A stretch of DNA of 27,355 nucleotides from Minisyncoccota bacterium (GTDB taxonomy: Bacteria; Patescibacteriota; Minisyncoccia; UBA6257; HR35), in the NCBI GenBank assembly GCA_938048445.1, contig CALIVE010000050.1, positions 1 to 27,355 on the forward strand, read 5' to 3'. How positions within the stretch are numbered: position 1 is the first letter of the stretch; each line of letters begins with the position of its first letter. The translations under genes were made by a program, and so were the position numbers. Positions 1,969 through 25,622 of this stretch are shown here, piece by piece. The notes beneath the pieces are model-generated. The model did no database searches and was not told the origin of the DNA. It was given only the letters and a program-made list of their open reading frames with translations.

Positions 1969-2448
1969 TCAATTTTTAAAAAAATTTTTATAATTATTTA
2001 ACCTTCTTCTGCCAAACAAAATTAAAAAAAACATTTTTAAAAAATCTTTTGTTACTTTATTTAATTTTTTGGTTTTAATTTTTTTTCTTAAATTCATTGT
2101 AAAAATTTTAATAGTTGATTGAGAAACTGATAATTTATTTGCTATTTCTTTTGAATTATATAAAATATATTTTAAAATCATATTAAATCTTTCAAGACTT
2201 TTATCATCAAGAATTTTTTTAAGGTCATTAATAATATCATTTTTGTGAATCAAATAATAAGATATCATTTTTAACCACAAATTATATAATAAAAGCCGAT
2301 TTTTCATTGTTAAATAACTTATTCCTAAATAACGATAACTTGAATTTTTAGTATAAGAATAAATAAAAATCAAATCTTTAATCTTTTCTGGCAGGCAATT
2401 GAAGTATTCTATTACTTGTTTCTTTAATTTTTGTTTTGAAATCACCAT
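1969..2448 (-). CDS. Double helix-turn-helix, putative transcription regulator or sigma-region-4-like protein
   Basis: A 159-residue basic protein. Two stretches look like helix-turn-helix units. Around residues 19-50 there is a sigma region-4-like pattern starting LPEKIKDLIFIYSY and continuing YRYLGISYLTMKNRL. Around residues 96-125 NSKEIANKLSVSQSTIKIF fits a LuxR/sigma-type recognition helix. The C-terminus is strongly basic (FGRRRLNNYKNFFKN). The start was set at ATG 2448, although an upstream TTG is possible. It overlaps the preceding gene by 71 bases, unusually long for this region. Its position directly downstream of the NusG-like factor suggests a transcription role, but the target is unknown. 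The gene ends in TGA. Confidence 0.5.
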   Translation of the reverse strand: MVISKQKLKKQVIEYFNCLPEKIKDLIFIYSYTKNSSYRYLGISYLTMKNRLLLYNLWLKMISYYLIHKNDIINDLKKILDDKSLERFNMILKYILYNSKEIANKLSVSQSTIKIFTMNLRKKIKTKKLNKVTKDFLKMFFLILFGRRRLNNYKNFFKN

Positions 2449-3028
2449 ATATACTTTCAAAGGACATCTTAATTTTTTCTAAAATTTTATTTCTTAAACT
2501 TTTATCTTCTATCATATCTGCTATTATATTAACAATTGTTTCTGAAATCTGAAAAAAATAATCATCAATAAAATTATTTAATTCTTGAATAACAATTTCT
2601 TTATTTATATTATAACTTTCTAAAAAACTCTCACGCTCTTTTTTTAATTTAACTATCATATTTACAAAATTAAGATAAGTCGTAGCAGCATAAGGACTTG
2701 TCTGTTTTTTAAGATTTTCAAATAATTGTTTTGCTTGCTCATTCAATTTATCCAAAACTTCATCAATAAACTCAAATTCAGTTTTTTTAATATTTTTAAA
2801 AAGTCCTGTTTTTGGTTTGGAATTAAGACGTGTCATTATCTCATCTTTTAAATAATCATTAAGAGTATCAAATTGTTTCAATTTATTCGCAACAATCTGA
2901 TAAATCATATTTTCATTATAAATATAATCAAAAAACAAATTGGCAATATATTGAATCCTTATCGCATCAATTCCTTGTAAAAATAAATAAAGAATAAAAT
3001 TTTCAAAATCAGTTCTTACTATTTTCAT
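2378..3028 (-). CDS. Hypothetical helical protein downstream of the NusG-like gene
   Basis: A 216-residue, almost entirely helical protein with heptad-like Leu/Ile spacing over residues 75-130 and again near the C-terminus, so it may form coiled coils. I do not recognise a family. The chosen start is ATG at 3028 (MKIVRTDFENF), which lies inside the end of the NusG-like gene in another frame. A TTG a few codons upstream is less likely. Its start and end both overlap neighbours, so it is tightly embedded between a transcription elongation factor and an HTH protein. A transcription-associated role is only guilt by association. Confidence 0.65.
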   Translation of the reverse strand: MKIVRTDFENFILYLFLQGIDAIRIQYIANLFFDYIYNENMIYQIVANKLKQFDTLNDYLKDEIMTRLNSKPKTGLFKNIKKTEFEFIDEVLDKLNEQAKQLFENLKKQTSPYAATTYLNFVNMIVKLKKERESFLESYNINKEIVIQELNNFIDDYFFQISETIVNIIADMIEDKSLRNKILEKIKMSFESIYGDFKTKIKETSNRILQLPARKD

Positions 3029-3563
3029 CGTTAATGACAACAACTAATGATTGAGGAATATTAATTTTGATTTCTCTATTAAAAATAAAAATTTTAATTA
3101 TAAGTTTGTCATCTTTTACTTCTTCAACAATTCCTCTAAAACCTTTAAAAGAACCACTAATAATTTCAACTTTATTGCCTTCTTTAATATTCATATTTAT
3201 CTTTTTTTCACTTAATTGTTTAAGTTTTTTTTGAAACTTTCTAATTTCAAACTCGGGAATTGTTACAACTTTGCTTGTATTTTTAATAAACAACTTTAAA
3301 GGATATAAAATACGATTATCTAATTTTTTCCACTCTTCAAACATCTCATTAATTTGATGCTCTAAATTATTATTATCAATATCAATTTTTAAAAATAAAA
3401 TATTTGGTATCACAAAGCAATCATTATCCATAATTTTATAAGAAGGAACCAAAAATTCCGATACTCTGTTCTTTAATAAATTCTTTAATTCAAGATTATA
3501 TTTTTCAATTATTTTAAATTGTGTGCAAGACTTTACATAAACCCCAACCCAAACTGATTTCAT
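3009..3563 (-). CDS. NusG/Spt5-like transcription elongation factor
   Basis: A 184-residue protein with the NusG layout: an NGN-like domain (about residues 1-115, starting WVGVYVKSCTQFKIIEKYN, with VIPNILFLKI as the core strand) followed by a KOW motif at about 127-152 (KEGNKVEIISGSFKGFRGIV). In cellular NusG the NGN domain binds the beta-prime clamp helices and the KOW domain contacts partners such as ribosomal S10 or Rho. This window also encodes a beta-prime, so a dedicated virus pair is a reasonable inference. Length matches bacterial NusG. RfaH-like specialised paralogues are the main alternative. The start ATG overlaps the stop of the upstream gene (ATGA). Confidence 0.8.
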   Translation of the reverse strand: MKSVWVGVYVKSCTQFKIIEKYNLELKNLLKNRVSEFLVPSYKIMDNDCFVIPNILFLKIDIDNNNLEHQINEMFEEWKKLDNRILYPLKLFIKNTSKVVTIPEFEIRKFQKKLKQLSEKKINMNIKEGNKVEIISGSFKGFRGIVEEVKDDKLIIKIFIFNREIKINIPQSLVVVINDENSKN

Positions 3564-5773: not shown

Positions 5774-7519
5774 TTATAATATTTTAGAAATATTATTTAT
5801 TTTTTCAACTTTTAAAATTCTATCAAAAATAGGTATAGAAGTTAACTTTTCATTATGACTAATAACAAATATAGAAAGGCCTTTTTGCTTCAATTCTATC
5901 AATAAATTAATAACAAGTTCACAACCAACATCATCAAGAGGGTCTAAAACTTCATCTAAAATTAAAAGATTTACTGGAAAAATAATGTTTAAAAACGAAT
6001 TTAAAGCTAAATAAATAGCAATATCTATTCTTCTTCTTTCGCCACTGGAACAATTATGATAATTATCAATCCCTGAAAAACCATAAATGTCAAAATCCCA
6101 TTTTTCTCTAATTTCTCCTGTTTTTAAATATGTAAAAGGTTTAAACTCTGCTCTAATCGGCCTATCAAATAATTTTGTTAAATAATTATTTAAATTTTCA
6201 TTGAAAGCCGATAAATAAATTGATAAAATATAATGAACAAAACCCTGCGAAGAAAAACCTTTATTATACCAAAAATCATACACTTCATAATCCTCTTTTA
6301 TTAATTCTAATTCTTTTTCTTTTTCTTTTATTTTAATATCAATTTCTTTAATTGAATTTTCAATCTCTTTAATCCTTTTATTTATATTATCAAATATAGT
6401 TTCAAGTTCTTTAATCTCTTTTTCTAAAAGAATAATTTCTTCATCAAATTTTTGAATAGTTTTATTTTTAATATTTATTAAATCCACTTTATGAGAAATA
6501 CTTTCGTTAATTTGTTGGCTTTTTCGTTTCAATTCATTCAATTGAAATTCTAAATTTTTATATTCCTCTTCTAAATTTTTTAATTGAGAATCAAAAATTT
6601 CAATTTTTGAATCAACATAATCAGAAGAAACAATACTTCCACAAACAGGACAAATTCCTTTTTGTTTTAATAATACAAAATTGTTTTTTCTTTCTTTAAC
6701 TTCTGTTAATTTTTTTCCTTTATTTAATAAGTTATTTGTTACTTCAAAAATTTTTAATTCAGTATTAATTTTTAAATTATTTAAATCATTAAGACTTCTT
6801 TGAAGACATTCAATTTCTGAATTCAAATTTTGTTTAAAACTTAAAATATCATTTTTTATTTTTATTAAATCATCTAATCTATTCTTTTTTTCATTTAAAT
6901 TAATTATTTCTTTTTCTTTATCATTTTTTTCTTTTATCAATTTTTCTCTAAAATTAATATTTTCTGTAATTGATGTTTTTATTTCAGTGATTTTATTTTC
7001 AATTTCTATAAGAATATTTTTTGCTTTCTGCCTTGCTTCTTCAATCTTATCTAAACCTAAAAAATTCATAAATAATTGCTTTTTTTCTTTATCACTTGCT
7101 AAAACAAAAGATTTAAAATTCGTACCAGAAATAAAAATATTTTTAAATAAAGAAAAATTAATAATTTTATTAATCAACTCTTCTGTCTTTCTCATATCAG
7201 AAAAAGAAATTTTTTCACCATTTTGATAAAATTCAAGCCTTCCACCTTTATTATCTCTTGTTCTTACTACTTTATAAACATTTGAATCTTTTTCAAATTC
7301 TAACGTAACAGAACAAAAATTCGTTCCTTTTCTAATAACATCAGAAGTTTGAATGCCTCTGGGAGTTGTTCCATAAAGACACCAATAAATTGACTCAAAT
7401 AAAGCACTCTTTCCTGAACCATTATAACCTTGAATAAGAGTTAACGAAGGCTTAAATTCTAAAACATATTCATCATAACTTAAAAAATTTTTTATTATAA
7501 GTTTTTTAAATACAATCAT
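5774..7519 (-). CDS. Rad50/SbcC-like ATPase subunit (T4 gp46-type)
   Basis: A 581-residue SMC-like ATPase that works with the Mre11-like nuclease to resect DNA ends for recombination. Order of parts: N-terminal Walker A GYNGSGKS at 31-38, a long coiled coil rich in Lys/Glu, a zinc hook CPVC at about 288-291, a return coiled coil, the ABC signature SSGERRR at about 493, and Walker B LLILDEVLDPLD at about 523. The coiled coil is short compared with bacterial SbcC (about 1,000 residues) and similar to T4 gp46 (560), supporting the phage subtype. The start ATG overlaps the TGA of the nuclease gene, a typical arrangement for this two-subunit complex. Confidence 0.93.
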   Translation of the reverse strand: MIVFKKLIIKNFLSYDEYVLEFKPSLTLIQGYNGSGKSALFESIYWCLYGTTPRGIQTSDVIRKGTNFCSVTLEFEKDSNVYKVVRTRDNKGGRLEFYQNGEKISFSDMRKTEELINKIINFSLFKNIFISGTNFKSFVLASDKEKKQLFMNFLGLDKIEEARQKAKNILIEIENKITEIKTSITENINFREKLIKEKNDKEKEIINLNEKKNRLDDLIKIKNDILSFKQNLNSEIECLQRSLNDLNNLKINTELKIFEVTNNLLNKGKKLTEVKERKNNFVLLKQKGICPVCGSIVSSDYVDSKIEIFDSQLKNLEEEYKNLEFQLNELKRKSQQINESISHKVDLINIKNKTIQKFDEEIILLEKEIKELETIFDNINKRIKEIENSIKEIDIKIKEKEKELELIKEDYEVYDFWYNKGFSSQGFVHYILSIYLSAFNENLNNYLTKLFDRPIRAEFKPFTYLKTGEIREKWDFDIYGFSGIDNYHNCSSGERRRIDIAIYLALNSFLNIIFPVNLLILDEVLDPLDDVGCELVINLLIELKQKGLSIFVISHNEKLTSIPIFDRILKVEKINNISKIL

Positions 7520-8475
7520 AAATCAAACAATAATTTTTTAGCAATTTCAAAATATTTATCTTTTTTTGTTTCAATTGTTTTATCAACATATTCTTTAAGA
7601 ATTTTCTCTAAATTAAATTCGTTCTGCGAAACTTTTAAAATCTCTTTTTTGTTTTCATCTTTTTTAGCAACTAAAACTTGTAAAACATTATCAGGCAAAT
7701 TTTGTATTTTTTTAAGTTCCTCTTCATTTATTATAAGGCGATAATAACAATTTTCATCATTTATTTCAGAAATTGAATACACAGTTTTATATTTTTTACA
7801 ATTAGTTTGAATAAATTCTAATTCATTTTTATCTAAATCAAATATCCACACACCTTTTTGCTCATTTTCATCATTAAAATTTAATTGCAAAACAGAACCA
7901 ATTTGAACAACATTTTTTATTTTATACATTTTATGACAATGCCCTGAAAATATCCATTCAAATTTATTTGAATAATCAGACCAATTAAATAATTCTTCTT
8001 CTGGCGGACGACTAAAAATAATTGGAAAATTTAAAAGCAATTGATGTAAAAATAAAATATCACCATCTGGTATTTTGATTTTGTTTATCTCTTTTGTATA
8101 AGGAATAAACACAAATTTTTTGTCTTTTATTTTAACAACTTTTGGAATACTAATAACTTTAAAATTTCTTAAACCAAATAACTCAAGAGATGTTATTTGT
8201 TCAATATATTTGTCGTGATTGCCAACTAAAAAATAACCTTCAATTTTAACTTCTTGAAAAATCTTTGAAATAGCATATATTGCTCGTGAATCTAACAAAT
8301 ATTTATCATTAAAAAAATCACCAGCAAAAATAAATAATTCAACATTGTTTTTATCAAAAATTTCAAATACCTCTCTTAAAATATTAATTCCATCTAAAAG
8401 ATAAGAATCCCAAATCCCTTCAACTTTCTTTCCACCTTTCCTTAAATGTAAATCACTAAAAATACCTATTTTCAT
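7516..8475 (-). CDS. Mre11/SbcD-like nuclease subunit (T4 gp47-type)
   Basis: A 319-residue calcineurin-like phosphoesterase. It is the nuclease partner of the Rad50-like protein encoded immediately downstream. Metal-binding motifs appear in the expected order: SDLHLRKG near the N-terminus, FAGDFFND around residue 50, VGNHDKY around 100, and FSGHCHKMYK around 178. The C-terminal third is probably the capping and Rad50-binding region. Length agrees with T4 gp47 (339). AAAGGATT upstream of ATG 8475 is a fair ribosome binding site. The start overlaps the exonuclease stop (ATGA). Together the pair should prepare 3' ends for RecA loading. Confidence 0.93.
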   Translation of the reverse strand: MKIGIFSDLHLRKGGKKVEGIWDSYLLDGINILREVFEIFDKNNVELFIFAGDFFNDKYLLDSRAIYAISKIFQEVKIEGYFLVGNHDKYIEQITSLELFGLRNFKVISIPKVVKIKDKKFVFIPYTKEINKIKIPDGDILFLHQLLLNFPIIFSRPPEEELFNWSDYSNKFEWIFSGHCHKMYKIKNVVQIGSVLQLNFNDENEQKGVWIFDLDKNELEFIQTNCKKYKTVYSISEINDENCYYRLIINEEELKKIQNLPDNVLQVLVAKKDENKKEILKVSQNEFNLEKILKEYVDKTIETKKDKYFEIAKKLLFDL

Positions 8476-9400: not shown

Positions 9401-10384
9401 TTATAAACGAAAACTTTCTTGAATTAAACTTTCAAGCTCCTCTTGATTTTGTTTAAAATATTCTTCTAAATCATTAATCCGATAGTTTTTATCTTTATAT
9501 TTAATCCATCCTTTGTTTTCTGTTATTATCCCCTTTTCTATCAAAAAATTAATACTTGTTAAAATATCATTAATTCCTTTTTCAAAATCAAGTATAAAAA
9601 GACATTCTCTAAAAGGAGTAGCCACCTTATTTTTCACTGTTCTTGCCTTTACTGAAACACCAATTATTTTATCATCTTTAATTAATTTATCTTTTATTGT
9701 TAATTCAAGACGAACAGCAGCATAAAATTTTAATGCTTCGCCACCTGGCGTCGTCCATTTAGGTCCAAACATTACACCAATATTCTGCCTAACTTGATTA
9801 ATAATAATTAAAGTAAATTTTTCCCAAGTTAAAAACCTTTTCATTCTTCGTAAAGCAGAACTCATTGCTTTAGCACCTATGCCATAATAATTTTCACCAA
9901 AATCACCTTCAATCTCTAATCTTGAAGGAGTAGCTGCATAAGAATCCCAAAGAACTACAATTGAAGATTCACCAGAAACAGTTTCACCTGTTTTTTCAAT
10001 AAATTCAAAAACTTCTTCAATCGTATTAAGTTGAACATAAACTAATTCATTTGTATTTAAACCTAAACTTTTTGCTCTTAAAGAATCATAACTTGTTTCT
10101 GTATCAATAAGAATTGTTGTAAACCCTCTTTTTTGTGCATTAGCAAGAATTTGATATCCCAATGTGCTTTTGCCTGTTGCTTCTTGCCCAAATATTTCAA
10201 TTATCTTTCCAACAGGAATTCCTTTGCCAATAGTTTTATCTAAAATAATTGAACCAGTTGAAATCCAATCTTTAACATCAGCAATCGTTTCTTCGCCTAA
10301 TGAAACAACTGCCCCTTTACCAAAATATTTGTCGCCAATCTCAATTATTTTGTTGATTATTTTATTTTTATTTTGCTTCTCCAT
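9401..10384 (-). CDS. RecA-like recombinase
   Basis: A 327-residue strand-exchange protein. It looks more like bacterial RecA than T4 UvsX: FGKGAVVSLGEE and ISTGSIILDKTIGKGIP near the N-terminus, Walker A GQEATGKST at 66-74, ILIDTE as the next strand, WDSYAA as Walker B, then INQVRQNIGVMFGPKWTTPGGEALKF, split here as INQVRQNIGVMFGP and TTPGGEALKF, covering DNA-binding loops L1/L2. The MAW-type glutamate is present in FGQEATGK, where bacterial RecA has PESSGK. The C-terminal acidic domain is short. It follows the UvsY-like candidate with a 17-base overlap and lies with SSB, exonuclease and Rad50/Mre11, forming a recombination-dependent replication block. Confidence 0.93.
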   Translation of the reverse strand: MEKQNKNKIINKIIEIGDKYFGKGAVVSLGEETIADVKDWISTGSIILDKTIGKGIPVGKIIEIFGQEATGKSTLGYQILANAQKRGFTTILIDTETSYDSLRAKSLGLNTNELVYVQLNTIEEVFEFIEKTGETVSGESSIVVLWDSYAATPSRLEIEGDFGENYYGIGAKAMSSALRRMKRFLTWEKFTLIIINQVRQNIGVMFGPKWTTPGGEALKFYAAVRLELTIKDKLIKDDKIIGVSVKARTVKNKVATPFRECLFILDFEKGINDILTSINFLIEKGIITENKGWIKYKDKNYRINDLEEYFKQNQEELESLIQESFRL

Positions 10385-10798: not shown

Positions 10799-11551
10799 TT
10801 ATTTCCTCCTTAATTCATCACCTAAATTTTTAACCTGTTTTAAAAAATCATCAGAAGAACCCTCTTGCAATTGAACAATATCAGAAGTCTTATTAATTTC
10901 TTGTCTTTTCAAAGCTAACTCTTGTTCAGCAATTTGTTTTAAAACATCATTAGGTTGGCAAATAAAAATATTACGAAAATCAACATTTATTTTATTAAAA
11001 ATCTCATTTAATTCTTTTTCATCTTTAGCAAGAGGAGAAGTATTCGGAAAAGCAGTTAATGTATAAACAAAATACATACCGTGTTTGGATTTTTCAAGAA
11101 TAAAATCTCTTCCATTATAAGGATGTGTAAAATCACCATAGATATTTTCAATTAAATAATTAATTAAAGTCAAATGAACTTTTGAACTTGCTAAAAACAA
11201 ATAAGGAGTAGTAGGTGAAATACTTCGGTCAATAATCCAATAAGCACCTTTTTCAGATACCTCAAAATGTGAGGCAAGTCCTTGGTCTGTTAAATCCATA
11301 CTTATTGATAATCTATCAGCCATTTCGCATAAAGGACAAGGCCTGTTTTCAACAATAAGAGGACATAACACTGAAACATTTGTTAAATAATGATAACCAA
11401 TTGGAACAAAAGGCAAATCAGCTTCTGGATGTTTTATAAATCTAATTATGTTGCGTCCAATTTGAGGAATGTAAAATTGAATATTTTGTGTTTGTATTTT
11501 TTGTATTCTTTCTTTTAATACTTTTAATTTTTCAATGTTTATTTGTTTCAT
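10799..11551 (-). CDS. Single-stranded DNA-binding protein, T4 gp32 type
   Basis: A 250-residue gp32-like SSB. Evidence: NIIRFIKHPEADLPFVPIGY leading to a His-Cys zinc site, H54 then C63, C72 and C75 (VLCPLIVENRPCPLC), matching the H-C-C-C arrangement known in T4 gp32. An aromatic-rich OB-like core follows (GAYWIIDR, TPYLFLASSKVHL, GMYFVYTL). The C-terminal 50 residues are charged and probably form the protein-interaction tail. gp32 is 301 residues, so this is slightly shorter. Strong AAGGAGG ahead of the ATG, overlapping a degenerate promoter-like element. It coats ssDNA during replication and recombination. Confidence 0.88.
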   Translation of the reverse strand: MKQINIEKLKVLKERIQKIQTQNIQFYIPQIGRNIIRFIKHPEADLPFVPIGYHYLTNVSVLCPLIVENRPCPLCEMADRLSISMDLTDQGLASHFEVSEKGAYWIIDRSISPTTPYLFLASSKVHLTLINYLIENIYGDFTHPYNGRDFILEKSKHGMYFVYTLTAFPNTSPLAKDEKELNEIFNKINVDFRNIFICQPNDVLKQIAEQELALKRQEINKTSDIVQLQEGSSDDFLKQVKNLGDELRRK

Positions 11552-12271: not shown

Positions 12272-14434
12272 TTAAAAAAGAGTATTTTCATTTTTAAAAA
12301 GTATATTATAAATTGGCATAATTTTTAAATCAATAATTCTATAAATTATTTTTTCATAATCAATTCCAAAGCCATCTGGAAATTTATCAATAAAAGCAAT
12401 AACATCAGTTAAAGAATAACCTTTTGGCACTTTATTTACAAAAATATATTTAAAACGAGAAATAAATGGGTCAATTTTATCTATAATTTTATGTTCTAAA
12501 CTATATTTTAATGCACGAATATGAATAGGGTCAATTTTATAATCTTCTAAATTTTTAATTGAAACAGGAAAACCTAAAAGCGAAGGGTCTATTTCTTTAA
12601 TTTCTTTTTTTACCTTCTTTATAAAATTATCTATTTCATTTTTATTGCCATCACATACTAATTCATAAAATTGTTGTAAAATTTGTTTGCAATATTCAGG
12701 AGTATCAGACCTTTTTGTTTCAAAACCAACAACATCAATGTATTTTTTATCATCTTCAACAACCCTACCAAAATATCTCTTTTTAGCACCAAAGAAAATT
12801 GTTTCATAAAATTTATCAAATTTTATTGAAAGATAATGATTTTGAATATTATATTTTTTAATATAAGAATCAACAAGATTATTAAGAAGATTTTCAGAGT
12901 TTTCAATCTCTTTTTTAGCATCTTCATAATTATTTGATTTAAGTTTCAAAAAATAACTATCTGTGTCAATATAAACACATTGCAAACCACTATTTTTTTC
13001 TAAAAAACTTAATAAATCTCTTCCAAGAAAAGTAATAGTTTCAGCAACATTACGTGAATATAATCTTGAACCAACAAAAGTAGCATAACCATAAACTGCA
13101 TTTATAATTCCTTTTATTCCCATATATTTTAATTTTTCAATTTCTAAAAAATAACTTCTTTTTTTATATTCTTCTTTTAATTCTAAAAATTCTTCACAAA
13201 CATAAGGAAATAAACCTTGTTTTTCTTGCGAAAAATAAATACCATTTATATTAACTTTTTTAACATTATCATTTTCTTTGCATTCTGTTTCTGGTGATAT
13301 ATTAAATGTTCTAATAAGATTTGGATACAATGAAACAAAATCAAAACTGGCAATATTTTTAAAGAGACCTTGTTCTGGTTGCTTTACATATGCTCCTTTA
13401 AAAGTCTTATGCTCTTTTTGCTTTTTTGAAGGAAGAACAATATTTAATTTTTTTGCAAAATATAATAAAAGATTATCTATTAAACTTGAACTATAAAAAA
13501 TATCATCAAAAGTACTTCTGGCCAATTTTCTAATTACATTATAATAACCAATTATGTTAAATTTCTTTTCAAGTTTAACCATAATTTCAATATCTCTTTT
13601 GTTATACTCTAAAAGTTGTGAAAAATCATCAAAACTTTTAATATCAATTTTTTTAATAGATAAAAATTTTTCAGCAACATAATTAAGAGAATAACTATCA
13701 AGATTTTTTATAAGATTTTTAAACATTAAAAGATAATCTTGTAAACTTGTTCCTGGAATTTTATCTTCCGACAAATTAACTTCTTTCAATTCTTCAATCG
13801 GTGTCGCCTTTATGAGCCTTTTTCTTCCATAACGATTAAATAAATATGGAAAATCAAAATTTTGACTATTCCAACCTAAAATTAAATCAGGAAAATTTTC
13901 TTCCAAAAAAGATATATAACTATCTATCATCTGCTCTTCATTTTCACATTCATAATAAATAGTATCATCAGAAAATTTTGTTTTTTTTATGGTGTTTTCT
14001 TTCCAATAAAATTGATAATATTTTTCTGTTAAAGAATCCCAAACACCAATTAAATTAATAGGCAATCTTGCTTCTTTTGGATTTGGTAAACCTGACTCTG
14101 TTATAATTTCAATATCAATAAAATGATAACGCAAAGGTTCCTCAAAATCTAAATCAATTTTGTTTTCAGCATATAAATCAATTAATATACGATTTGGATA
14201 ATGAATATCTGCTTCATAAGTTTCTTCATATTTTTCTCTTTCAATTTTAACATCATAAGGACTATTACAAACTATCTTTTTTAATCTTTTTCCAAAAATA
14301 GAACAATATTCACCTTCTTCAGAAGGAATATAAAAATAAGGATAAAAATCATCAATTTTTTTAATTATAAGCGAATAATCTTTTTTGCGCTGTGTAATCC
14401 AAGCTAAATGGCCGTAAGTAAAAATGTTATTCAT
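12272..14434 (-). CDS. Family B DNA polymerase with 3'-5' exonuclease
   Basis: A 720-residue replicative polymerase. Proofreading domain: Exo I FIDIEI (D107, E109), Exo II LGWNSQNFDFPYLFNR, Exo III YNKRDIEIM. Polymerase domain: motif A SFDFVSLYPNL at about 368, motif B KGIINAVYG at about 445 followed by a nearby SRLYSRNVAE, motif C YIDTDSYF at about 490. The C-terminal part is the thumb. It is shorter than T4 gp43 (898) and closer to compact viral/archaeal PolB. It should act with the clamp and loader encoded upstream. There is no Shine-Dalgarno sequence; the leader is A-rich and preceded by a large hairpin, so translation may be regulated. The start MNNIFTYGHL is the first ATG in the frame. 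Confidence 0.93.
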   Translation of the reverse strand: MNNIFTYGHLAWITQRKKDYSLIIKKIDDFYPYFYIPSEEGEYCSIFGKRLKKIVCNSPYDVKIEREKYEETYEADIHYPNRILIDLYAENKIDLDFEEPLRYHFIDIEIITESGLPNPKEARLPINLIGVWDSLTEKYYQFYWKENTIKKTKFSDDTIYYECENEEQMIDSYISFLEENFPDLILGWNSQNFDFPYLFNRYGRKRLIKATPIEELKEVNLSEDKIPGTSLQDYLLMFKNLIKNLDSYSLNYVAEKFLSIKKIDIKSFDDFSQLLEYNKRDIEIMVKLEKKFNIIGYYNVIRKLARSTFDDIFYSSSLIDNLLLYFAKKLNIVLPSKKQKEHKTFKGAYVKQPEQGLFKNIASFDFVSLYPNLIRTFNISPETECKENDNVKKVNINGIYFSQEKQGLFPYVCEEFLELKEEYKKRSYFLEIEKLKYMGIKGIINAVYGYATFVGSRLYSRNVAETITFLGRDLLSFLEKNSGLQCVYIDTDSYFLKLKSNNYEDAKKEIENSENLLNNLVDSYIKKYNIQNHYLSIKFDKFYETIFFGAKKRYFGRVVEDDKKYIDVVGFETKRSDTPEYCKQILQQFYELVCDGNKNEIDNFIKKVKKEIKEIDPSLLGFPVSIKNLEDYKIDPIHIRALKYSLEHKIIDKIDPFISRFKYIFVNKVPKGYSLTDVIAFIDKFPDGFGIDYEKIIYRIIDLKIMPIYNILFKNENTLF

Positions 14435-14893: not shown

Positions 14894-15757
14894 TTAGTAT
14901 TTAAATCTAAATATAAGTTGAGTTAGTTCTGGCCGACTAATAAAATCTTCAAGAGTAAAAATAAATCTGTGGCCAATATTACATATTCTATCTGGTTCAA
15001 AACCAAATAATTCTTTAATTTTTTTAGAAATTTCCTCGGGAACATAAATTCTGAACCTTCCTTTATTAACACGAACAAATACTCCTTTTTGACAACCTTG
15101 AATATTTGGATACATACGCTTCAATTCATTCATTATTTTAAGATTTCTTTCTTTTGCTTTACTGATTTTTCCTTGTTCAACTTTATTTTCAACTACTTTA
15201 ACAGGAATAATTTCAGGAGATTGGTCAAATAACTTTTTTGCATCTTCACAATCTTGAAATATGTTGCAATTTTGACAAAGCTCATCATTTTTATCAAAAA
15301 GAATACCAAAACAATCGGAAGTAGTTTCGTTTATTATTTTTTCAGTCTTTAGCCATTTTGATAATCGCTCTTTAAAAGCATCGGAAATTGGAAAATTTTT
15401 TAACTCTTCTTCTTTAATATCTTTTGGGTCTTTTTCTAATTTCTTTTTTAAATAATTGTATTCTAAACGTGTTAATTCCATTTTACCTCCTATTTTAAAT
15501 GTTTTTAATTTATGAACAAAAGTTATTATTTCTTTATTTTCTACTTTATTTAATTCATTAAAGTTTTTAACTTCAACTTTTTGATTTTTCAACTGACTTA
15601 AAGCATTTTTTACATAAAATTCAAGATAAGAAGTATTAACTTTATCAAGTTTCCCCATTTTAATTAATTGATTAAGCACAGCATACTTCCAAGAATCAGG
15701 AAGTTTATATTTTTCAGCAAAATAATTAAGTTTCTTCAATAAATCTTCTAATTTCAT
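14894..15757 (-). CDS. Cys-cluster protein of unknown function, with internal start
   Basis: A 287-residue protein. Residues 1-90 are helical and Lys-rich. The centre carries a cysteine cluster, DCFGILFDKNDELCQNCNIF followed by QDC: one Cys, then about ten residues, CxxC, then Cys. This fits a zinc or iron-sulfur site of a kind recurrent in phage proteins, whose function I cannot name. The C-terminal third (GVFVRVNKGRFRIYVPEE) looks strand-rich. In frame, ATG at 15481 (Met93, MELTRLEYNYL) has a perfect AGGAGGTAAA ahead of it, so a 195-residue short form is likely made too, or instead. The full-length start at 15757 overlaps the upstream gene by 32 bases and has only AAAGAAG. Confidence 0.65.
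   Translation of the reverse strand: MKLEDLLKKLNYFAEKYKLPDSWKYAVLNQLIKMGKLDKVNTSYLEFYVKNALSQLKNQKVEVKNFNELNKVENKEIITFVHKLKTFKIGGKMELTRLEYNYLKKKLEKDPKDIKEEELKNFPISDAFKERLSKWLKTEKIINETTSDCFGILFDKNDELCQNCNIFQDCEDAKKLFDQSPEIIPVKVVENKVEQGKISKAKERNLKIMNELKRMYPNIQGCQKGVFVRVNKGRFRIYVPEEISKKIKELFGFEPDRICNIGHRFIFTLEDFISRPELTQLIFRFKY
15482..15491 (-). promoter_or_regulatory. Internal ribosome binding site for a short form
   Basis: AGGAGGTAAA directly ahead of an in-frame ATG at 15481, inside the coding region of the Cys-cluster protein. It is stronger than the site of the full-length start. The short product would keep the Cys cluster and C-terminal domain and lose the helical N-terminus. Confidence 0.55.
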
Positions 15758-16127
15758 CTTCTTTAATTATACCAAGTTTTTCTTTTGCTAAATTAATAAT
15801 TTCATTAGTTAAATACATCATATTTAAATTAAACTCTCTTGTTGACCATTTAAAATATCTTTTAACCCTATTAACAAAATTTTCATAATTTTCATTTGTT
15901 TTCTCTTTTTCCTTTTTTTTCAAATATAATTTTAATAATTTTTTATTTCCTTTTACAAAACATAAAAAAATTTTATAAAAAATTTCTGGTTTATAATAAA
16001 TATTATTCAAAACATCAGCAATCTTTATAAAATCAATTTTTTGTTTTAATAAATTAAGTGTATACTTTTGAGGCGGTAAAAAATCTGGAATTTCACCTCT
16101 AATTAAAGCTTCCTTAAAATCATTCAT
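15726..16127 (-). CDS. Candidate clamp-loader small subunit (T4 gp62-like position)
   Basis: A 133-residue basic helical protein. Two things suggest a gp62-type loader subunit. It directly follows the RFC-like ATPase as gene 62 follows 44 in T4. Its C-terminal half (ENFVNRVKRYFKWSTREF, then helices) recalls the 'KRxxKW' stretch I associate with phage clamp-loader A subunits, and LPPQKYTLNLL near the N-terminus could be the matching 'iN..' segment. It is shorter than T4 gp62 (187). It has its own promoter-like element and no Shine-Dalgarno sequence; the leader is A-rich. If wrong, it is an unknown small protein. Confidence 0.4.
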   Translation of the reverse strand: MNDFKEALIRGEIPDFLPPQKYTLNLLKQKIDFIKIADVLNNIYYKPEIFYKIFLCFVKGNKKLLKLYLKKKEKEKTNENYENFVNRVKRYFKWSTREFNLNMMYLTNEIINLAKEKLGIIKEDEIRRFIEET

Positions 16128-16140: not shown

Positions 16141-16203
16141 TAAAAATTTGTTTTTTGTAAATATTTTTCTTATATATAATAGTGCAATAAAAACAAATTT
16201 TTA
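16141..16203. repeat. 15-bp perfect inverted repeat flanking the promoter-like core
   Basis: TAAAAATTTGTTTTT at 16141-16155 and AAAAACAAATTTTTA at 16189-16203 are exact inverted copies, 33 bases apart. The right arm is the upstream box of the minus-strand promoter-like element, and its -10-like core lies between the arms. The same box therefore also points the other way. Confidence 0.6.
16169..16200 (-). promoter_or_regulatory. 32-bp promoter-like element, copy A
   Basis: Minus strand: AAATTTGTTTTTA, then TTGCACTATTATATATAAG. It lies in the 79-base gap ahead of the gp62-like gene, 41 bases from its ATG. It is nearly identical to copies B and C, each placed directly upstream of a gene. The TATTAT/TATATAA core resembles a -10 element; the T-rich box is at a conserved distance, but no standard -35 is seen. 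Confidence 0.65.
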
Positions 16204-16206
16204 AAA

Positions 16207-17103
16207 TTAAAGACTTTCACTAATTTCTAAAATACAAGCCAATAATTGAATTTCTTTATCCAAAACAAAATAACTTTTATACTGCCTATCAGCAATTTTT
16301 ATTAAAATATTTGCTTTTTTATCATCTGGTATCTCATTAGCGTTAAAAACTTTGTTAAATAAAAAAGTATAAATATTATCATCTTCAAGAATAATTGGAT
16401 AAGTTTTAATTATTTCTTTTATTGCTTCAAAATTTCTTTCTTTAACACCTTTCTCATACAAAAGTTCATATATTTCAGTATCTGTAAAAAAATTAGATAT
16501 GTCTAATTTTGAATCTTTAACAGAAGATTGAAGAATATTTATCATTTTCCGAATATCAGGATAACATAAAGTTATAAGTTTTTCAACATCTTCTTTTTGA
16601 TACGAAACTTTTTCATTTATAAGAATATATTCTAACCTTTTTAATAATTCATTTTTATCAATATTACCAAAATTAACCAAGGCAGTACGAGAAATAATCG
16701 GTTCAATAAACTTTCTAATATAATTGCCTGTTAAAATAAACCTCGTATTTTCAGAATATTGTTCCATAATCCTTCTTAATGAATTTTGAGCATCATTTGT
16801 CATTGAATCAGCTTCATCAAGTAAAACAATTTTTAAAGGTTTATCAGTCGCCTTCATACAATAACTTTTTATTGTTTCTCTAACAGTATCAATTCCTCTT
16901 TCATCAGAAGCATTTAATTCAATGTATTCAGCATCAAGCATTTTTATTATTATTCTGGCAACTGTTGTTTTGCCCGTTCCAGGAGGCCCTATGAAAAGAA
17001 AATGAGGTATCTTATTATCAATTTTCAAATTCTTAATCTCATTTGGAAGACTAACAACTTCATTTAATTCTTTTGGCCTATACTTTTCAACCCAAATATC
17101 CAT
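16207..17103 (-). CDS. RFC small-subunit-like clamp loader ATPase (T4 gp44-type)
   Basis: A 298-residue AAA+ protein that opens the sliding clamp and loads it on primed DNA. It is closer to archaeal/eukaryotic RFC small subunits than to bacterial gamma/tau: MDIWVEKYRPKELNEVV at the N-terminus, Walker A GPPGTGKT at 39-46, NASDERGID, Walker B LLDEADSM, then QNSLRRIMEQYS, sensor 1 LTGNYIRKF, and the arginine-finger region IISRTALVNF, where the usual SRC triad reads SRT. A C-terminal helical collar follows. The start was set at ATG 17103, one base after the clamp stop, because the longer frame runs into the clamp gene. T4 gp44 is 319 residues. Confidence 0.92.
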   Translation of the reverse strand: MDIWVEKYRPKELNEVVSLPNEIKNLKIDNKIPHFLFIGPPGTGKTTVARIIIKMLDAEYIELNASDERGIDTVRETIKSYCMKATDKPLKIVLLDEADSMTNDAQNSLRRIMEQYSENTRFILTGNYIRKFIEPIISRTALVNFGNIDKNELLKRLEYILINEKVSYQKEDVEKLITLCYPDIRKMINILQSSVKDSKLDISNFFTDTEIYELLYEKGVKERNFEAIKEIIKTYPIILEDDNIYTFLFNKVFNANEIPDDKKANILIKIADRQYKSYFVLDKEIQLLACILEISESL

Positions 17104-17104
17104 A

Positions 17105-17866
17105 TTAAACAAAAGGCAAATAATTAACAAGATAATTTTTTATAAAATAATCATCAGTCTCTTCAATTAAAGATAATATATAAGTATCTTTCTTTTCTGG
17201 TATGAAAAACATTGCAAAAGTAACCATATCAAGAGATAATTTTTTGATAACTTCCATAATTTGTTTAGTCTCATAATGAACTTCTAAATTAATATTTATT
17301 GGTTCCAAATCTAAATAATTTATTATTTTGTTTTCACTTCCAGCAGGAGCACTAGCAATAATTTTAATTGATTTTGGTGAAAATTCAAAAGTTATAAATT
17401 TTGAATCAAAAATCAATGCATCATTTATTGATTGTTCTAAAACATCAGAAGGAATATTAAAAGAAAATAATAAATTTTCTTCTTTCTCAAAAGACCTAAC
17501 ATTCTCTGGTGTATCAGTATATTCAATATAATCAGGAACAACAAGAGTATATTGCACTTCTCGTTTTTCAGTTTTTAAAAATAAATGAGTATTTTTTATA
17601 AGCGTAATTAATTCATCAAAAGATTCAATAATTTTAATAAAAATTGGAAAATCAACAATAGGCAATAATTCTTCTGACTCAACTTGATAATCTTTAAAAT
17701 AAGAACTCTTATTTGAAATAAAAAGATTAACATATCTTTGCTTTGTTCTGTTTGCCTGCTTAATTATTAAACCTTCTGGTCTCAACCTTATTAAAATATC
17801 TTTAAGTTCCATTCCTTCTGCCTTTTTTAAAATTTGTGTAATAGATGGGTCTATTTTAATTTGCAT
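17105..17866 (-). CDS. Sliding clamp (PCNA / T4 gp45-like)
   Basis: A 253-residue protein with the strand-rich, two-domain look of PCNA-type clamps and no catalytic motif. Supporting sequence: MELKDILIRLRPEGLIIKQA near the N-terminus, a long central linker, SFNIPSDVLEQSINDALIF opening the second half, FEFSPKSIKIIASAP, and ITFE-type strands to the C-terminus. Size fits trimeric PCNA or gp45 (228-260). The best evidence is context: the RFC-like loader follows one base downstream, and the primase overlaps its start by 11 bases. A strong AGGAGGTAAA site sits inside the primase end. Individual residue similarity is weak, so the call leans on neighbours. Confidence 0.75.
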   Translation of the reverse strand: MQIKIDPSITQILKKAEGMELKDILIRLRPEGLIIKQANRTKQRYVNLFISNKSSYFKDYQVESEELLPIVDFPIFIKIIESFDELITLIKNTHLFLKTEKREVQYTLVVPDYIEYTDTPENVRSFEKEENLLFSFNIPSDVLEQSINDALIFDSKFITFEFSPKSIKIIASAPAGSENKIINYLDLEPININLEVHYETKQIMEVIKKLSLDMVTFAMFFIPEKKDTYILSLIEETDDYFIKNYLVNYLPFV

Positions 17867-18695: not shown

Positions 18696-18727
18696 TTTAT
18701 ATATTATAGTGCAATTAAAACAAATTT
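18696..18727 (-). promoter_or_regulatory. 32-bp promoter-like element, copy B
   Basis: Minus strand: AAATTTGTTTTAA, then TTGCACTATAATATATAAA. Its first two bases overlap the beta-prime stop codon, and its end is 21 bases from the primase ATG, so the RNA leader would be very short. TATAAT and TATATAA are both present in the core. Differs from copies A and C at only one to three positions. Confidence 0.7.
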
Positions 18728-21700
18728 ATTTTATAACATAACCAATCATTAATCTTGATTTTGGATGCTCAAATTTTTCAACTTCACCATAAAGAGCAAT
18801 TTTAGGTAATTGTCTTAAAACATCTTCAAAAGAAAGCCTTGCTAACGGACTATCTGATAAAAATGCAAGTTTTTTAACACCAAAAATTTCATATCTAAAT
18901 TTTTCTTTTAAACCTAAATCAGGTAATTCTTGCCTTTTTAATACTTTATTACCTATTCTTATTTTAAACATTTCTCTAACCAAAATTTTAAAATGCTTTT
19001 CATCAATATCAATTCCATAAAGACTATATATTTGCTTTAATTTTTCTACAAGAAATTTTTGGGCTTCTAAAATTCCTTTTGTTTTCATTATATCCATAAT
19101 ATCAATTTCACCACTTGTTAATCTTTCACCTGCCTTAATAAAATCACCATCTTTTGGAATAACAAAAACAGAATAGGGAACAATATATTTCCTTTGAGTC
19201 AAATCATTATAAACAGTTATTAATATATTTTTTTCTTTATAATCAATTTTTACTTTTCCATCAATTTCAGAAATAATAGCTTTTCTTTTTAATTTTTTGT
19301 TTTCAATAATTTTATTAACTTCTTCAATGCCACTTGTAATATCAGTATCAAAAATTGCTTCTGGAATTATTGCAAGAGTTTGACCCTTTTTAACAACCTC
19401 ATTATCTTTAACTTGTAAATAACATTCAGGCAAATAAATAACTTTTTCTTCATTAGAATTATAAATAATTAATTTTGGTATATTCTTAAAAGAATGAATA
19501 ACTTTATTCAAAGGTTTATTAAATTCATCAAATTCTGTTATTGTTTCAACATCTTCAAATTTAACTCTACCATCTATTGGAGATTCAATTTTAAAAAATT
19601 TACTACCAATTATTTTTATTGCACCACCAAGTTTTGCTAATCTCAAAGTCATTTGGGTTCCTGGCTCACCAATTGATTGTGCTGCTAAAATACCAACAAA
19701 AGGACTACTATAATCACCATAACATTTTGCACAAACTCCTTTTTTACTTTTACATAACAAAATATCGTGTTCCAATTCACCACAATCTTCTTCTGTTATT
19801 TTAATAGGATACAAAGCTTCAATAAGTCTTCTTGTTAAATAACCAGCATCAGCAACGCCTTGTTTTGATAAAGTTCTTCTTGAAGCTTTTGAACTTTCAA
19901 AATAATCAATTGGACTTAAACCTTCATAATAACCTTTATCAATTATTATATAAGTCTTTTTCTCTTCTAAAACAACCATCATACCTTTAAAAATAAATTG
20001 TACTATCTGGTCAATAGAAGCCCTTGCACCTGACTTAACACATTTATAAATATTTGTTTTTTCCAATTCTTTTTCCAATTTATTAATTGTTTCATTTGTA
20101 AGATTTATTAAATTAGTTTCTTTTTCTTTTTTCTCTTTAAATTCTTTAATAACTTGTTTCATATTTTCAGTTATATTAAATTCAAAAGTAAATCCTTTTA
20201 TTGTCGCTATTTCAAAACCCAATTTTTTCAATTCATCAAGATATTTAAGATAAGTTTCTTCACCAAAATTTTTTAATTCCAAAAGTATATCATTTATTAT
20301 TTTTTTATCAACAGGCTTATTAATAAATCTCATTTTTTCTGGCAAAAAAGAATTAAATAAAACTCTTCCAAAAGTTGTTAAAATTTTTTCACCTTTGTAA
20401 AAAACAATAACTGTATCATCAAAATCTATTCCAGAAAAAGCTTCATATGAAGAAATCAAATTAACAGCTTCATCAAAATCATAAATTCCTTTAATTTTTT
20501 CTTTTTCTGGTTCTTTTTCTGTTAATAAATACAAACCAAGAATCATATCTTGATGTAATTTAATTAAAGGTTTATTATTTGCTGGCGAAACAATATCATA
20601 AGGAATTTTTTCAAATTCTTTTTTTGATTTTTCAGAAATTAAAGCATATACAGCCATTGTATCTCCATCAAAATCAGCATTAAAGGGAGGACAATAGCAA
20701 GGATGAAGACCAATTGCTTTTTTATCCCAAAATTTTGGTTTAAATTTTTGAATGCTTGGCCGATGTAAAGTTGGTTGGCGATTAAGAAGAACTAATTCTT
20801 TCTCTTCTATTTCTTTAATTATTTTATTTAATGTTTCTTTTGGTATTTTAAAAACATTTAAACTTTTATTTTTTGGCCAAACACCTTCTCTAACAAAATA
20901 ATAACGCCACATTTCTAAAAATTCAAAAGGTAATCTAACTTCATTATAAGAAAGAGTTGGGTCAGGAACAATAACTGAACGACCTGAATAATCAACTCTC
21001 TTTCCAAGTAAAGAATTTCTTAAAAGACCATCTTTTCCAACTAATGAACCTGTTATTGAAGTTATTTTTTCCCAACGCTTACTTTTTATTTTAAGTCTTT
21101 CTTTCATAAAAAGAATATCAACTGTTCTTTGTAAATCTTTATAAGCATTAATTAATAAAATTAAAGGAGCTAAACTTTCTTGTAATTTTTTTATGTTTTC
21201 ATTAATTATAAAAATTTCAGTATAAAGATGTGTTATGTTATCAATAATTATTTCACCTTCTAATTCAAGATATACTCTAATCCCCGCTGGAATAACTGGT
21301 AAATGTCTTATGATAGTATCAAGAGGATTACAATTATCAATAATTTTAATTGCCTTTTTGATTTTTTCTTTTTCTTTTTCTTTGGTTTCTAATTTTAATA
21401 ATGCTTCTAATCTATTCTTTTTGTTTTCATTTAAAAAAGAATTTAAATAAAATTCAATAATTTCAGCTCCTAATAAATATTTAGAATCTTTTTGATATTT
21501 TTCAAAAAATTTGTCAATTGAAACTAATTCGCCATCAAGATAAACCAATTCAAAATTAAGAATTGATTGAACTTGCTTAAATTTCAACGGAATTAAATTA
21601 TAAATATCTGTTCTTTGACGCCAAAAAAGAGGATTGGCAACAGGAAAATATAATTCAATTCTTGCCATCCTTTCTCTTCTAACATCTGATTTTGTAATCT

Positions 21701-21914
21701 CAACGTGGCAAACAGGACAAAAAATTTGTTCTTTTGGAGGAGAACTTAAAACAATTTTACCACAAGCACAACTATAATCTTTTATAGGACCGAAAATTCT
21801 TTCGCAAAATAAACCATCTGATATAGGACGACCACTACTATCAAAATATCCTGTATTTTTAATTTTAGGTAATTTTTCAATTTCTTTTTGAGGCCAAATT
21901 GTAAATTTATACAT
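18726..21914 (-). CDS. RNA polymerase beta-prime subunit, bacterial type, virus-encoded
   Basis: A 1,062-residue multisubunit RNA polymerase largest subunit in one piece. In order: DGLFCERIFGP, N-terminal zinc ribbon C49, C51, C66 and C69 (CACGK...CPVC), GKRVDYSGRSVIV, LLNRQPTLHRPS, the Mg-binding NADFDGD at 412-418, SGARAS near 628, bridge-helix region EGLSPIDYFESSKASRRTL, ADAGYLTRRL, second zinc site C711, C721, C728 and C731, and trigger loop AQSIGEPGTQMTLRLAKLGG at 746-765. The C-terminal jaw and final helix are kept. It is shorter than host beta-prime (about 1,200-1,500). In the trigger loop Lys761 stands where E. coli has His936. AAGGAGG precedes the ATG. It is placed between helicase and primase genes. 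No beta subunit is in this window. Confidence 0.95.
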   Translation of the reverse strand: MYKFTIWPQKEIEKLPKIKNTGYFDSSGRPISDGLFCERIFGPIKDYSCACGKIVLSSPPKEQIFCPVCHVEITKSDVRRERMARIELYFPVANPLFWRQRTDIYNLIPLKFKQVQSILNFELVYLDGELVSIDKFFEKYQKDSKYLLGAEIIEFYLNSFLNENKKNRLEALLKLETKEKEKEKIKKAIKIIDNCNPLDTIIRHLPVIPAGIRVYLELEGEIIIDNITHLYTEIFIINENIKKLQESLAPLILLINAYKDLQRTVDILFMKERLKIKSKRWEKITSITGSLVGKDGLLRNSLLGKRVDYSGRSVIVPDPTLSYNEVRLPFEFLEMWRYYFVREGVWPKNKSLNVFKIPKETLNKIIKEIEEKELVLLNRQPTLHRPSIQKFKPKFWDKKAIGLHPCYCPPFNADFDGDTMAVYALISEKSKKEFEKIPYDIVSPANNKPLIKLHQDMILGLYLLTEKEPEKEKIKGIYDFDEAVNLISSYEAFSGIDFDDTVIVFYKGEKILTTFGRVLFNSFLPEKMRFINKPVDKKIINDILLELKNFGEETYLKYLDELKKLGFEIATIKGFTFEFNITENMKQVIKEFKEKKEKETNLINLTNETINKLEKELEKTNIYKCVKSGARASIDQIVQFIFKGMMVVLEEKKTYIIIDKGYYEGLSPIDYFESSKASRRTLSKQGVADAGYLTRRLIEALYPIKITEEDCGELEHDILLCKSKKGVCAKCYGDYSSPFVGILAAQSIGEPGTQMTLRLAKLGGAIKIIGSKFFKIESPIDGRVKFEDVETITEFDEFNKPLNKVIHSFKNIPKLIIYNSNEEKVIYLPECYLQVKDNEVVKKGQTLAIIPEAIFDTDITSGIEEVNKIIENKKLKRKAIISEIDGKVKIDYKEKNILITVYNDLTQRKYIVPYSVFVIPKDGDFIKAGERLTSGEIDIMDIMKTKGILEAQKFLVEKLKQIYSLYGIDIDEKHFKILVREMFKIRIGNKVLKRQELPDLGLKEKFRYEIFGVKKLAFLSDSPLARLSFEDVLRQLPKIALYGEVEKFEHPKSRLMIGYVIK

Positions 21915-24068: not shown

Positions 24069-24190
24069 TGTCGGCCGTGCTGTTTTTTAATTGAATCTAA
24101 ATTGGTTAATTTTCTACCACATCGTTTACAATAAGAGACTTGGTTGTTCTTTTGTTGTTTTATAAACAATTTTAAATTTTTCTTTTTCAT
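24020..24190 (-). CDS. Small zinc-finger protein
   Basis: A 56-residue protein with a clear CxxC zinc knuckle, SYCKRCGRKLTNLDSIKKQH followed by GRQCF. This C-C-(H)-C pattern with 'CGRxLTxxxSxxxxxG' is common in small phage and actinobacterial proteins (DUF6011-like) that probably bind nucleic acid; the function is unknown. The start was set at ATG 24190 with a weak GGA ahead. The gene overlaps the UvsW-like helicase end by 65 bases in another frame and the next gene by 49 bases. It is a compact set of nested frames that may be translated by coupling. Confidence 0.55.
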   Translation of the reverse strand: MKKKNLKLFIKQQKNNQVSYCKRCGRKLTNLDSIKKQHGRQCFKKIRSQKIKNFLF

Positions 24191-25523
24191 ACAATTCCAA
24201 TCTTTTTTTAAACTGATTTTTAAAATAATCATTGCATTCATCAACTAAATCAACAATAATAACTTCTTTTTTGCCTTCCTCTCTCCTCATACCCCTTCCA
24301 ACCCTTTGAAGAAGATGCCGATAACTTGCTATTGGATAAGCCAAAACAAGAACTTCAATAGAAGGAATATCTATTCCTTCACCAAATAAAGTTGTAATTA
24401 AAATTTTTATTTCTTTATTTTGAAATTTATTCTTTATTTGAAGGCGATAAAGACTATCATCATTACCACATAAAAAAACTGAATTTGGTATCATTTGTTG
24501 CAAAATTCTTCCGTGTTCAATACGATTAACTAAAATAAGAATCTGCTTTCCTGAATAACTTAAAACAATATCTTTTATTAACTTATTTCTATTTTCATTT
24601 TTAATTAAATAATCAATTAATTCTAAATAATTTTTTCCAAAAATAAAAGGCAAATTTGTTTTATAAATGTGAATTACAGGAGGAATTGAATAACCTTTAT
24701 CAATCATAAATTGATTGGTTATATTATGACCAACTAACCAAGTGCTTGTTAAAGCAATAAGCTTCCAATCATTTATATCATTTGAAAAAGGAGTCGCCGA
24801 TAAACCAAACCTAAAAGGCGATTCTATTTTAAGCAAAATTTTATACCATTCACCTAATGTATAATGATGCACTTCATCAATAAACAAAACAGGAAAATTT
24901 TTTAAATAATTAATATAATTATTTAAACTTTGTATCATTACCACATTTCCATTTTGATTAAATATAAATTTTCCATCACCAATCAAACCAACTTCAATAC
25001 CATATTTTTCCATCCTTTCTTTTGTCTGATAAAGCAATTCTTTTAAATGTAAAACATATAAAAAAGGCTTATTTATTAATTTAATTAACATTATCGCAAT
25101 TTCGGTTTTCCCTGCATTGGTTGGAAGTTGAATAATACATCTATGAAGAGTTAAAGCATTTTTAATAACTTCAATTTGATAATCTCTTGCAAAATCAAAT
25201 AAATTGCAATTGTTTTCTATATTTTCTTTTGGTAAATTCGTATCATACATATAAATAATTTTTGTTGTTACACCATTTTTTTCAAGCTCGTTTTTTACAA
25301 AATAAAGAAATCCTGACGGAAATTTATCTTTATATAAAAAATTATAATAACCATCCCATTTTCCTTCTCTATAAGATTTGGTAAAAAAATATTTTGCTGG
25401 CCTAACTTTTAATGTTTCTTTTAAAATTAAATATACATCAGGAGAACAAAATACCTTTGTCCAAACAGGATAAACATATAATTCGGCATATTGCTTTTTA
25501 AAAATAAAATTACGATTTAACAT
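24126..25523 (-). CDS. UvsW-like superfamily II DNA/RNA helicase
   Basis: A 465-residue helicase. The N-terminal 105 residues are a small substrate-binding domain. Motor motifs follow: Q-like FDFARDYQIEVI, Walker A LPTNAGKTE at 133-141, DEVH at 216-219, SATP at 242-245, LVNRIEHG, ITTLFGEGIDIPSIE and QRVGRGMRR at 406-413 (motif VI). T4 UvsW (587) remodels branched DNA and removes R-loops, switching replication from origin- to recombination-dependent mode; the same role here is inferred from family and context. The gene follows promoter copy C with a short A-rich leader and no Shine-Dalgarno sequence. The final residues overlap the zinc-finger gene. Confidence 0.85.
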   Translation of the reverse strand: MLNRNFIFKKQYAELYVYPVWTKVFCSPDVYLILKETLKVRPAKYFFTKSYREGKWDGYYNFLYKDKFPSGFLYFVKNELEKNGVTTKIIYMYDTNLPKENIENNCNLFDFARDYQIEVIKNALTLHRCIIQLPTNAGKTEIAIMLIKLINKPFLYVLHLKELLYQTKERMEKYGIEVGLIGDGKFIFNQNGNVVMIQSLNNYINYLKNFPVLFIDEVHHYTLGEWYKILLKIESPFRFGLSATPFSNDINDWKLIALTSTWLVGHNITNQFMIDKGYSIPPVIHIYKTNLPFIFGKNYLELIDYLIKNENRNKLIKDIVLSYSGKQILILVNRIEHGRILQQMIPNSVFLCGNDDSLYRLQIKNKFQNKEIKILITTLFGEGIDIPSIEVLVLAYPIASYRHLLQRVGRGMRREEGKKEVIIVDLVDECNDYFKNQFKKRLELYEKEKFKIVYKTTKEQPSLLL

Positions 25524-25542: not shown

Positions 25543-25574
25543 TTTATATATTATAGTGCAAATAAAACAAATTT
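25543..25574 (-). promoter_or_regulatory. 32-bp promoter-like element, copy C
   Basis: Minus strand: AAATTTGTTTTAT, then TTGCACTATAATATATAAA. Ends 19 bases from the UvsW-like ATG. It is separated by 14 bases from the palindrome at 25589-25622, whose arms carry the same AAAACAAAT box, so the two elements may be read together. Confidence 0.7.
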
Positions 25575-25588: not shown

Positions 25589-25622
25589 AAAACAAATTGT
25601 TCCACGTGGAACATTTTGTTTT
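25589..25622. promoter_or_regulatory. parS-like palindrome, TGTTCCACGTGGAACA
   Basis: At 25598-25613 the sequence is a perfect 16-bp palindrome that fits the bacterial chromosomal parS consensus (TGTTNCACGTGNAACA), the ParB binding site. Symmetry extends to a 17-base arm on each side with a single mismatch. It lies in the 148-base gap between the sigma-like gene and promoter copy C. It could bind host ParB or a phage ParB. A terminator role for the upstream gene is possible but the hairpin would have almost no loop. Confidence 0.7.

Follow-up and report, generated by a model that had tools for sequence, protein, structure and literature searches.

An unsplit RNA polymerase beta-prime subunit with an altered active centre in the replication cluster of a phage-type contig

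The window, by which we mean the whole stretch of 27,355 bases analysed here, carries a gene for the beta-prime subunit of a multisubunit RNA polymerase that is real and correctly placed, and its product adds a deep phage branch for which no close relative was found. An unsplit phage beta-prime is already known in kind. New here are the lack of close relatives, the lack of an adjacent beta gene and the altered active centre. The window is an entire contig (G000:C50), a fragment open at both ends, from a bin of 638,374 bases in 87 contigs that is 95% complete. Its ORFs taken as genes are closely packed and all lie on the minus strand (Table 1), with 18.7 kb to one side of the beta-prime gene and 5.4 kb to the other.

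Table 1. Genes and motif copies of the window
Feature	Coordinates	Strand	Evidence or remark
HTH protein (LuxR/GerE-like)	1969..2460	-	PF00196 7.1e-05, 22.8 of 23.5 bits, just below cut-off
NusG/UpxY-like elongation or antitermination factor	3009..3563	-	PF00467 KOW above cut-off; phrog_6386 6.7e-07
SbcCD / gp46-gp47-type recombination nuclease pair	5774..8475 (5774-7519, 7516-8475)	-	phrog_77 6.8e-97; PF00149 1.4e-12
UvsX/RecA recombinase	9401..10384	-	phrog_97 2.4e-67
Single-strand DNA-binding protein, gp32-like, weak	10799..11551	-	phrog_1192 6.7e-07; no Pfam match at 1e-3
Family B DNA polymerase, T4/cyanophage-like	12272..14434	-	PF00136 5.7e-36; phrog_262 6.6e-115
Promoter-like motif, copy 1	16170..16199	-	Upstream of ORF 15726-16127
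Clamp loader (T4 gp44 / RFC type)	16207..17130	-	phrog_168 8.4e-71
Possible sliding clamp	17105..17866	-	Inferred from position and size alone; no family match (Pfam, PHROG)
DNA primase with Toprim domain, 272 aa	17856..18674	-	PF13155 7.1e-07; phrog_47 1.4e-36
Promoter-like motif, copy 2	18697..18726	-	Between beta-prime and primase; overlaps last base of beta-prime stop
Beta-prime subunit of multisubunit RNA polymerase, 1,062 aa	18726..21914	-	Rpb1 domains, NADFDGD
DnaB-like (T4 gp41-type) replicative helicase, 417 aa	22012..23265	-	PF03796 1.4e-20; phrog_19 1.4e-62
UvsW-type DNA helicase	24126..25523	-	phrog_16 4.4e-79
Promoter-like motif, copy 3	25544..25573	-	Upstream of UvsW helicase
Candidate sigma-like factor, 207 aa	25672..26295	-	Weak fold match: sigma region 2 then region 4

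The beta-prime gene is a single open frame of 1,062 codons. Its product contains the Pfam Rpb1 domains 1, 2, 3 and 5, each above its cut-off, and with the NADFDGD Mg site it belongs to the bacterial-type beta-prime proteins of the Rpb1/RpoC superfamily. The rpoC_TIGR model (TIGR02386) matches it at E 1.9e-170 with 569.1 bits, below the curated cut-off of 963.5, so that it does not qualify as an equivalog of cellular RpoC. The E-values obtained with Pfam and rpoC_TIGR exclude a chance match. On the same strand, the DnaB-type helicase lies upstream and the Toprim primase downstream. A first reading, made from the sequence only, had placed an unsplit gene between a helicase and a primase inside a phage replication cluster, and both statements stand: the Pfam and PHROG matches confirm the neighbours, and the phage-type contig holds a T4-like replication set.

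Since no structural gene (capsid, terminase, tail) was recognised with Pfam and PHROG among the ORFs scanned of this fragment, the label ‘phage’ derives from the replication set and the PHROG matches. Terminase, T4 portal and sheath families were absent from the bin, the portal search being silent in every control genome as well. The best 15 of 2572 records matching the family B polymerase include cyanophages and a Pelagibacter phage at ~25-27% identity and haloviruses at ~24%. Membership of a bacterial bin does not prove the host. The DNA N6/N4 methylase gene at 11594-12244 contains a single in-frame TGA right after its DPPY motif; recoding of TGA is not indicated because 5 of the 31 listed window ORFs end in this codon.

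All relatives found are at most 38% identical to the window protein. The highest values, 35 to 38%, belong to two metagenomic beta-primes, P0002 and P0121 (1,271 and 1,266 aa). P0121, whose longest listed contig has 50,518 bases, was missed by the full-length protein search, in which the 7994 candidates that shared the largest number of words were scored and the best 120 listed; therefore, other relatives may have been missed too. Its Mg site reads GADYDGD instead of NADFDGD, which suggests, without proving, a viral origin, and tblastn against a plasmid collection aligned P0121 to rpoC-like places at ~35% identity (best 8 of 71 records). In IMG/VR, a query with the single window protein yielded no relative among 199 pattern matches, the pair alignment A2 gave one distant relative and P0002 none. 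A word search with residues 85-290 recovered, among 2331 candidates, the protein itself and one match at E 9.6e-4. The scan of genome contigs yielded at least 588 relatives from at least 594 pattern matches, and the 80 kept are 27-33% identical and come from ordinary bacterial genomes, judging by title.

Two phylogenies were built, a quick one of 55 rows hand-chosen from those fetched and a careful one of 38 rows, for which P0121 was added and 18 rows were dropped (L092, L059, L079 and L062 because of their length, long or short; L009; and a further 13 for thinning). Both concur in grouping the window with P0002 (99), joined in the second by P0121 (98/99), outside the cellular rows and those resembling the multi-subunit RNAP-encoding Caudovirales (mReC-type rows). 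In the second tree, the 19 cellular rows are supported at 100/99 and the 11 mReC-type rows at 100/100 (UFBoot/SH-aLRT), and the window has the longest end branch, 1.89. The AU test does not reject a union of the window with cells (p 0.361) or with the mReC-type rows (p 0.197, or 0.393 with P0002 and P0121 added), for groups named after the first tree was inspected and trees that are unrooted and without an archaeal outgroup. Thus, a firm place for the window is not reached: UFBoot and SH-aLRT values are high, yet AU leaves both unions standing.

The residues of the catalytic centre were compared in an alignment of 57 rows: 27 cellular rows, 29 rows from phages, metagenomes or the window, and L009, a faecal record placed among Bacteroidota rpoC. 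In multisubunit RNA polymerases, the bridge helix and the trigger loop translocate the nucleic acid and place the incoming nucleotide. The first reading had credited the protein with all major beta-prime motifs. This holds for the NADFDGD site with its three Mg-binding aspartates and for both zinc sites with all eight cysteine ligands, and R352 and R425 are also retained. It does not hold for the bridge helix, which is two residues short (28 residues versus 30 in 56/56 other aligned rows), and for the trigger-loop histidine at position 936 (enterobacterial numbering), which is replaced by lysine (histidine in 54 rows, asparagine in two). Each change is unique to the window among the 57 rows; P0002, P0121 and the isolate-phage proteins have, unlike it, a normal bridge helix and the histidine. 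Among 222 fetched proteins, which are best matches and mostly alike, positions 934-936 read TFH in 219, SFH in two and LAK in the window; the bridge spacer is 20 in 213 of the 214 that matched the pattern and 18 in the window, the remaining 8 having no pattern match. In another phage beta-prime (L084, 9359-13543), a big insert, intein-like by eye, interrupts the trigger loop.

Conservation was counted over 270 columns at least 95% invariant across the 27 cellular rows. The window retains 157 of them, P0002 202, P0121 194, Rhizobium phage RHph_Y65 166, the 11 small-type viral rows 137-143 and the seven large-type rows 115-127. The window is thus less diverged than the mReC-type rows (115-143), yet not host-like, as the first reading had called it. 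The clamp helices differ as well. R275, E295 and A302 (enterobacterial numbering), which bind sigma in E. coli, are I, A and T in the window and M/V, L and S/A in P0002 and P0121, so that clamp-helix changes are common to these nearest proteins by tree (98/99) and the window. Glutamate 295 is retained in 27/27 cellular rows versus 3/27 of the phage, metagenomic and window rows that have a residue at this position, and it is absent from most other phage rows, some with their own beta among them.

A structure model of the protein, with a mean pLDDT of 63.7, retrieved RNAP beta-prime in Foldseek at E 7.8e-57 (TM 0.31, rmsd 30). The structure alignment (A3) had 44 rows, 43 of them from fetched proteins. 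Residues 672-771, which span the bridge helix, the second zinc site and the trigger loop, fall below a pLDDT of 50; the model is therefore silent on how the shorter bridge helix is built.

Beta HMMs found no beta on the 27-kb contig. The best E was 0.029, to the frame holding the gp47-type gene, although phiKZ-like diverged betas were absent from the HMM training rows and an extreme beta could be missed. Controls (host, small-type and large-type) scored 1e-91 or better, even when the HMMs had been trained with the controls left out. A search of the bin for an rpoB-like gene, which the sequence-only reading had proposed, returned only the host's beta (PF00562), adjoining the host rpoC on another contig (C36). 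Viral loci are commonly arranged otherwise. An alignment query of IMG/VR gave 98 relatives, of which 80 were kept, and beta was present on the fetched stretch in 79/80, fused to beta-prime in three (some loci being near-duplicates or on one contig). From a second query came 73 loci. HMMs were then run on 74 loci (72 new plus L059 and L092), and four of these, including two that share a contig, lacked beta on their stretch. The window, on which no beta was found, is unlike this common viral arrangement. In the viral contigs L062, L076, L087, L265 and L268, beta and beta-prime matches share one frame of ~1,800 to 2,300 codons. Six viral contigs (IMGVR_UViG_3300031669_004775, 3300017991_000092, 3300037245_003526, 3300001533_002103, 3300025087_000039 and 3300037246_001990) carry two polymerases each, a small type (beta-prime ~900 and beta ~1,000 codons) and a large type (beta-prime ~780-1,010 and beta ~1,370).

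Weinheimer and Aylward (2020, PMC7481178) describe 97 mReC contigs with both subunits that form one deep clade. The window resembles them in an unsplit beta-prime with NADFDGD that is alignable to cells. The mReC-type loci from IMG/VR, which presumably correspond to the published mReC although none was matched to a published contig, have RecA, SSB or gp46/gp47-like genes nearby in a minority of cases, as does the window. In the commoner small type, however, a beta-prime of ~885-980 codons is followed by beta, whereas the window has 1,062 codons and no beta near. By tree, the window lies outside the mReC-type clade (100/100), but AU (0.197 and 0.393) does not reject its union with these rows. 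An mReC phage encodes both beta and beta-prime; on the 27 kb of the window, an incomplete contig, no beta was found. In the phiKZ/AR9-type jumbo phages, according to PMC7824862 and PMC7598289, beta-prime comes in two polypeptides. These enzymes and the window's are alike as phage-encoded double-psi-barrel polymerases, but the window beta-prime is one chain. The premise that known phage multisubunit polymerases are split was not borne out, given the unsplit beta-primes of mReC phages (PMC7481178) and of RHph_Y65 (Kleczkowskaviridae), Vibrio 1.031 and Va2. The latter three also resemble the window in having no detectable beta (by whole-genome HMMs for RHph_Y65 and Va2 only). Their beta-primes are 25.8 to 27.1% identical to the window protein (tblastn), and RHph_Y65 differs in gene order and in having a family A DNA polymerase, versus family B in the window. 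In L202 (IMGVR_UViG_3300035492_000044), an RHph-like beta-prime is divided between neighbouring frames of 486 and 509 codons, and no beta accompanies it on the stretch.

Candidate transcription factors are found on the same contig. No sigma family matched ORF 25672-26295 in Pfam (E <=10) or PHROGs (E <=1), searches in which HMMER filters limit such weak matches, and its fold match, which weakly suggests a sigma-like identity, does not reach the score that the tool deems safe for helical folds. The NusG-like gene matched NF033644 (3.7e-11) and nusG (6.3e-09), both below their cut-offs. A 30-bp motif with a TATAAT-like core occurs three times in the window and had no matches in 100 shuffles, a flattering figure because the motif was spotted by eye in the same three gaps that were later tested. 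Its 18-mer core is absent from the remainder of the 638-kb bin at up to two mismatches. Together, the sigma-like ORF, the NusG-like gene and the motif suggest phage-run transcription, and the TATAAT core might be readable by the host polymerase. A perfect 16-bp palindrome (TGTTCCACGTGGAACA) at 25598-25613 is the sole match in the bin at up to one mismatch and fits the parS consensus of ParB; the scanned ORFs of the window yielded no recognisable ParB.

With moderate confidence, we favour the view that the window beta-prime serves as the Mg-binding, catalytic subunit in an RNA polymerase of the phage, and that its partner is a phage beta whose gene lies in the section of the genome missing from the 27-kb contig. 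Judged from the intact Mg site alone, the protein would be enzymatically active. Because the clamp helices are altered, a phage factor rather than the host sigma, perhaps the product of the 207-aa sigma-like ORF, would steer the enzyme to phage promoters. The 30-bp motif may be such a promoter or an operator, and the NusG-like protein would serve elongation.

The main rival, which the first reading had offered alongside a phage beta elsewhere, is a hybrid enzyme, in which the phage supplies beta-prime alone, replacing the host's and assembling with host beta, alpha and omega. It is made plausible by lone beta-prime genes in the complete genomes of RHph_Y65 (206,821 bp) and Va2 (128,360 bp), both unsplit (L006, L194-L197; L198-L200), where four beta HMMs found nothing below E 0.08; one-subunit takeover of the host polymerase is possible in these phages. 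In addition, tblastn with the RpoB of the bin had no match in 10 Rhizobium records, Vibrio 1.031 and Va2, and the window contig itself has no beta. However, that contig is incomplete at either end, and its protein keeps only 157 of the 270 cell-invariant positions. RHph_Y65 retains R275, R278 and E295, whereas the window, like P0002 and P0121, lacks R275 and E295, making a fit to host sigma less likely. Overall, we regard a hybrid as unlikely for the window. In the open-licence literature, we found no paper on a phage rpoC with a hybrid RNA polymerase or, by titles and abstract starts of 10 among 74 RHph papers, on the polymerase of these phages.

Less probable still is that the beta-prime is degenerating or has been repurposed and lacks normal polymerase activity, acting perhaps as a decoy or as an inhibitor by sequestering host subunits. 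The shortened bridge helix, seen in the window alone among the 214 matched proteins, and K936 could reduce or change catalysis, and the longest end branch in the second tree points the same way. Against this reading, the frame is full-length, the Mg site, zinc sites, R352 and R425 are intact, and the listing of the protein has two members with a longest contig of 21,321, not 27,355, bases, suggesting a second assembly.

Host DNA, whether as a chimera or as a recent host pseudogene, either of which would undo the first reading, is so improbable that it can be set aside: although the contig sits in a bacterial bin, the AU test rejects a clade of the window and seven rows of the bin's phylum (p 3.1e-61) and with it a recent host origin, base composition fits the contig and differs from the host, and gaps of only 51 and 97 bp separate the gene from same-strand phage-type genes. 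GC is ~0.25 for the beta-prime gene, as in its neighbours, 0.24 for the contig and 0.31-0.32 for the host contig; third-position GC is 0.093 for beta-prime, 0.183 for the host rpoC and on average 0.126 for window genes longer than 600 bases (beta-prime included). In the bin's phylum, 138/145 genomes have a match at E 1e-20, and the listed ones, the gene itself aside, are stretches with 31-37% identity, the majority of them in frames about as long as an ordinary rpoC.

A further, tentative proposal, also unlikely, is that the window beta-prime represents a deep, separate lineage of phage RNA polymerases, with an active centre remodelled by the short bridge helix and the lysine, its own sigma-like factor and 30-bp promoters, possibly borrowing the host beta. 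As a natural enzyme with a two-residue deletion in the bridge helix and no trigger-loop histidine, it would test how much of this machinery is dispensable. Together with the lone beta-primes of two complete isolates, it raises the question of whether phages may take over transcription via one core subunit.
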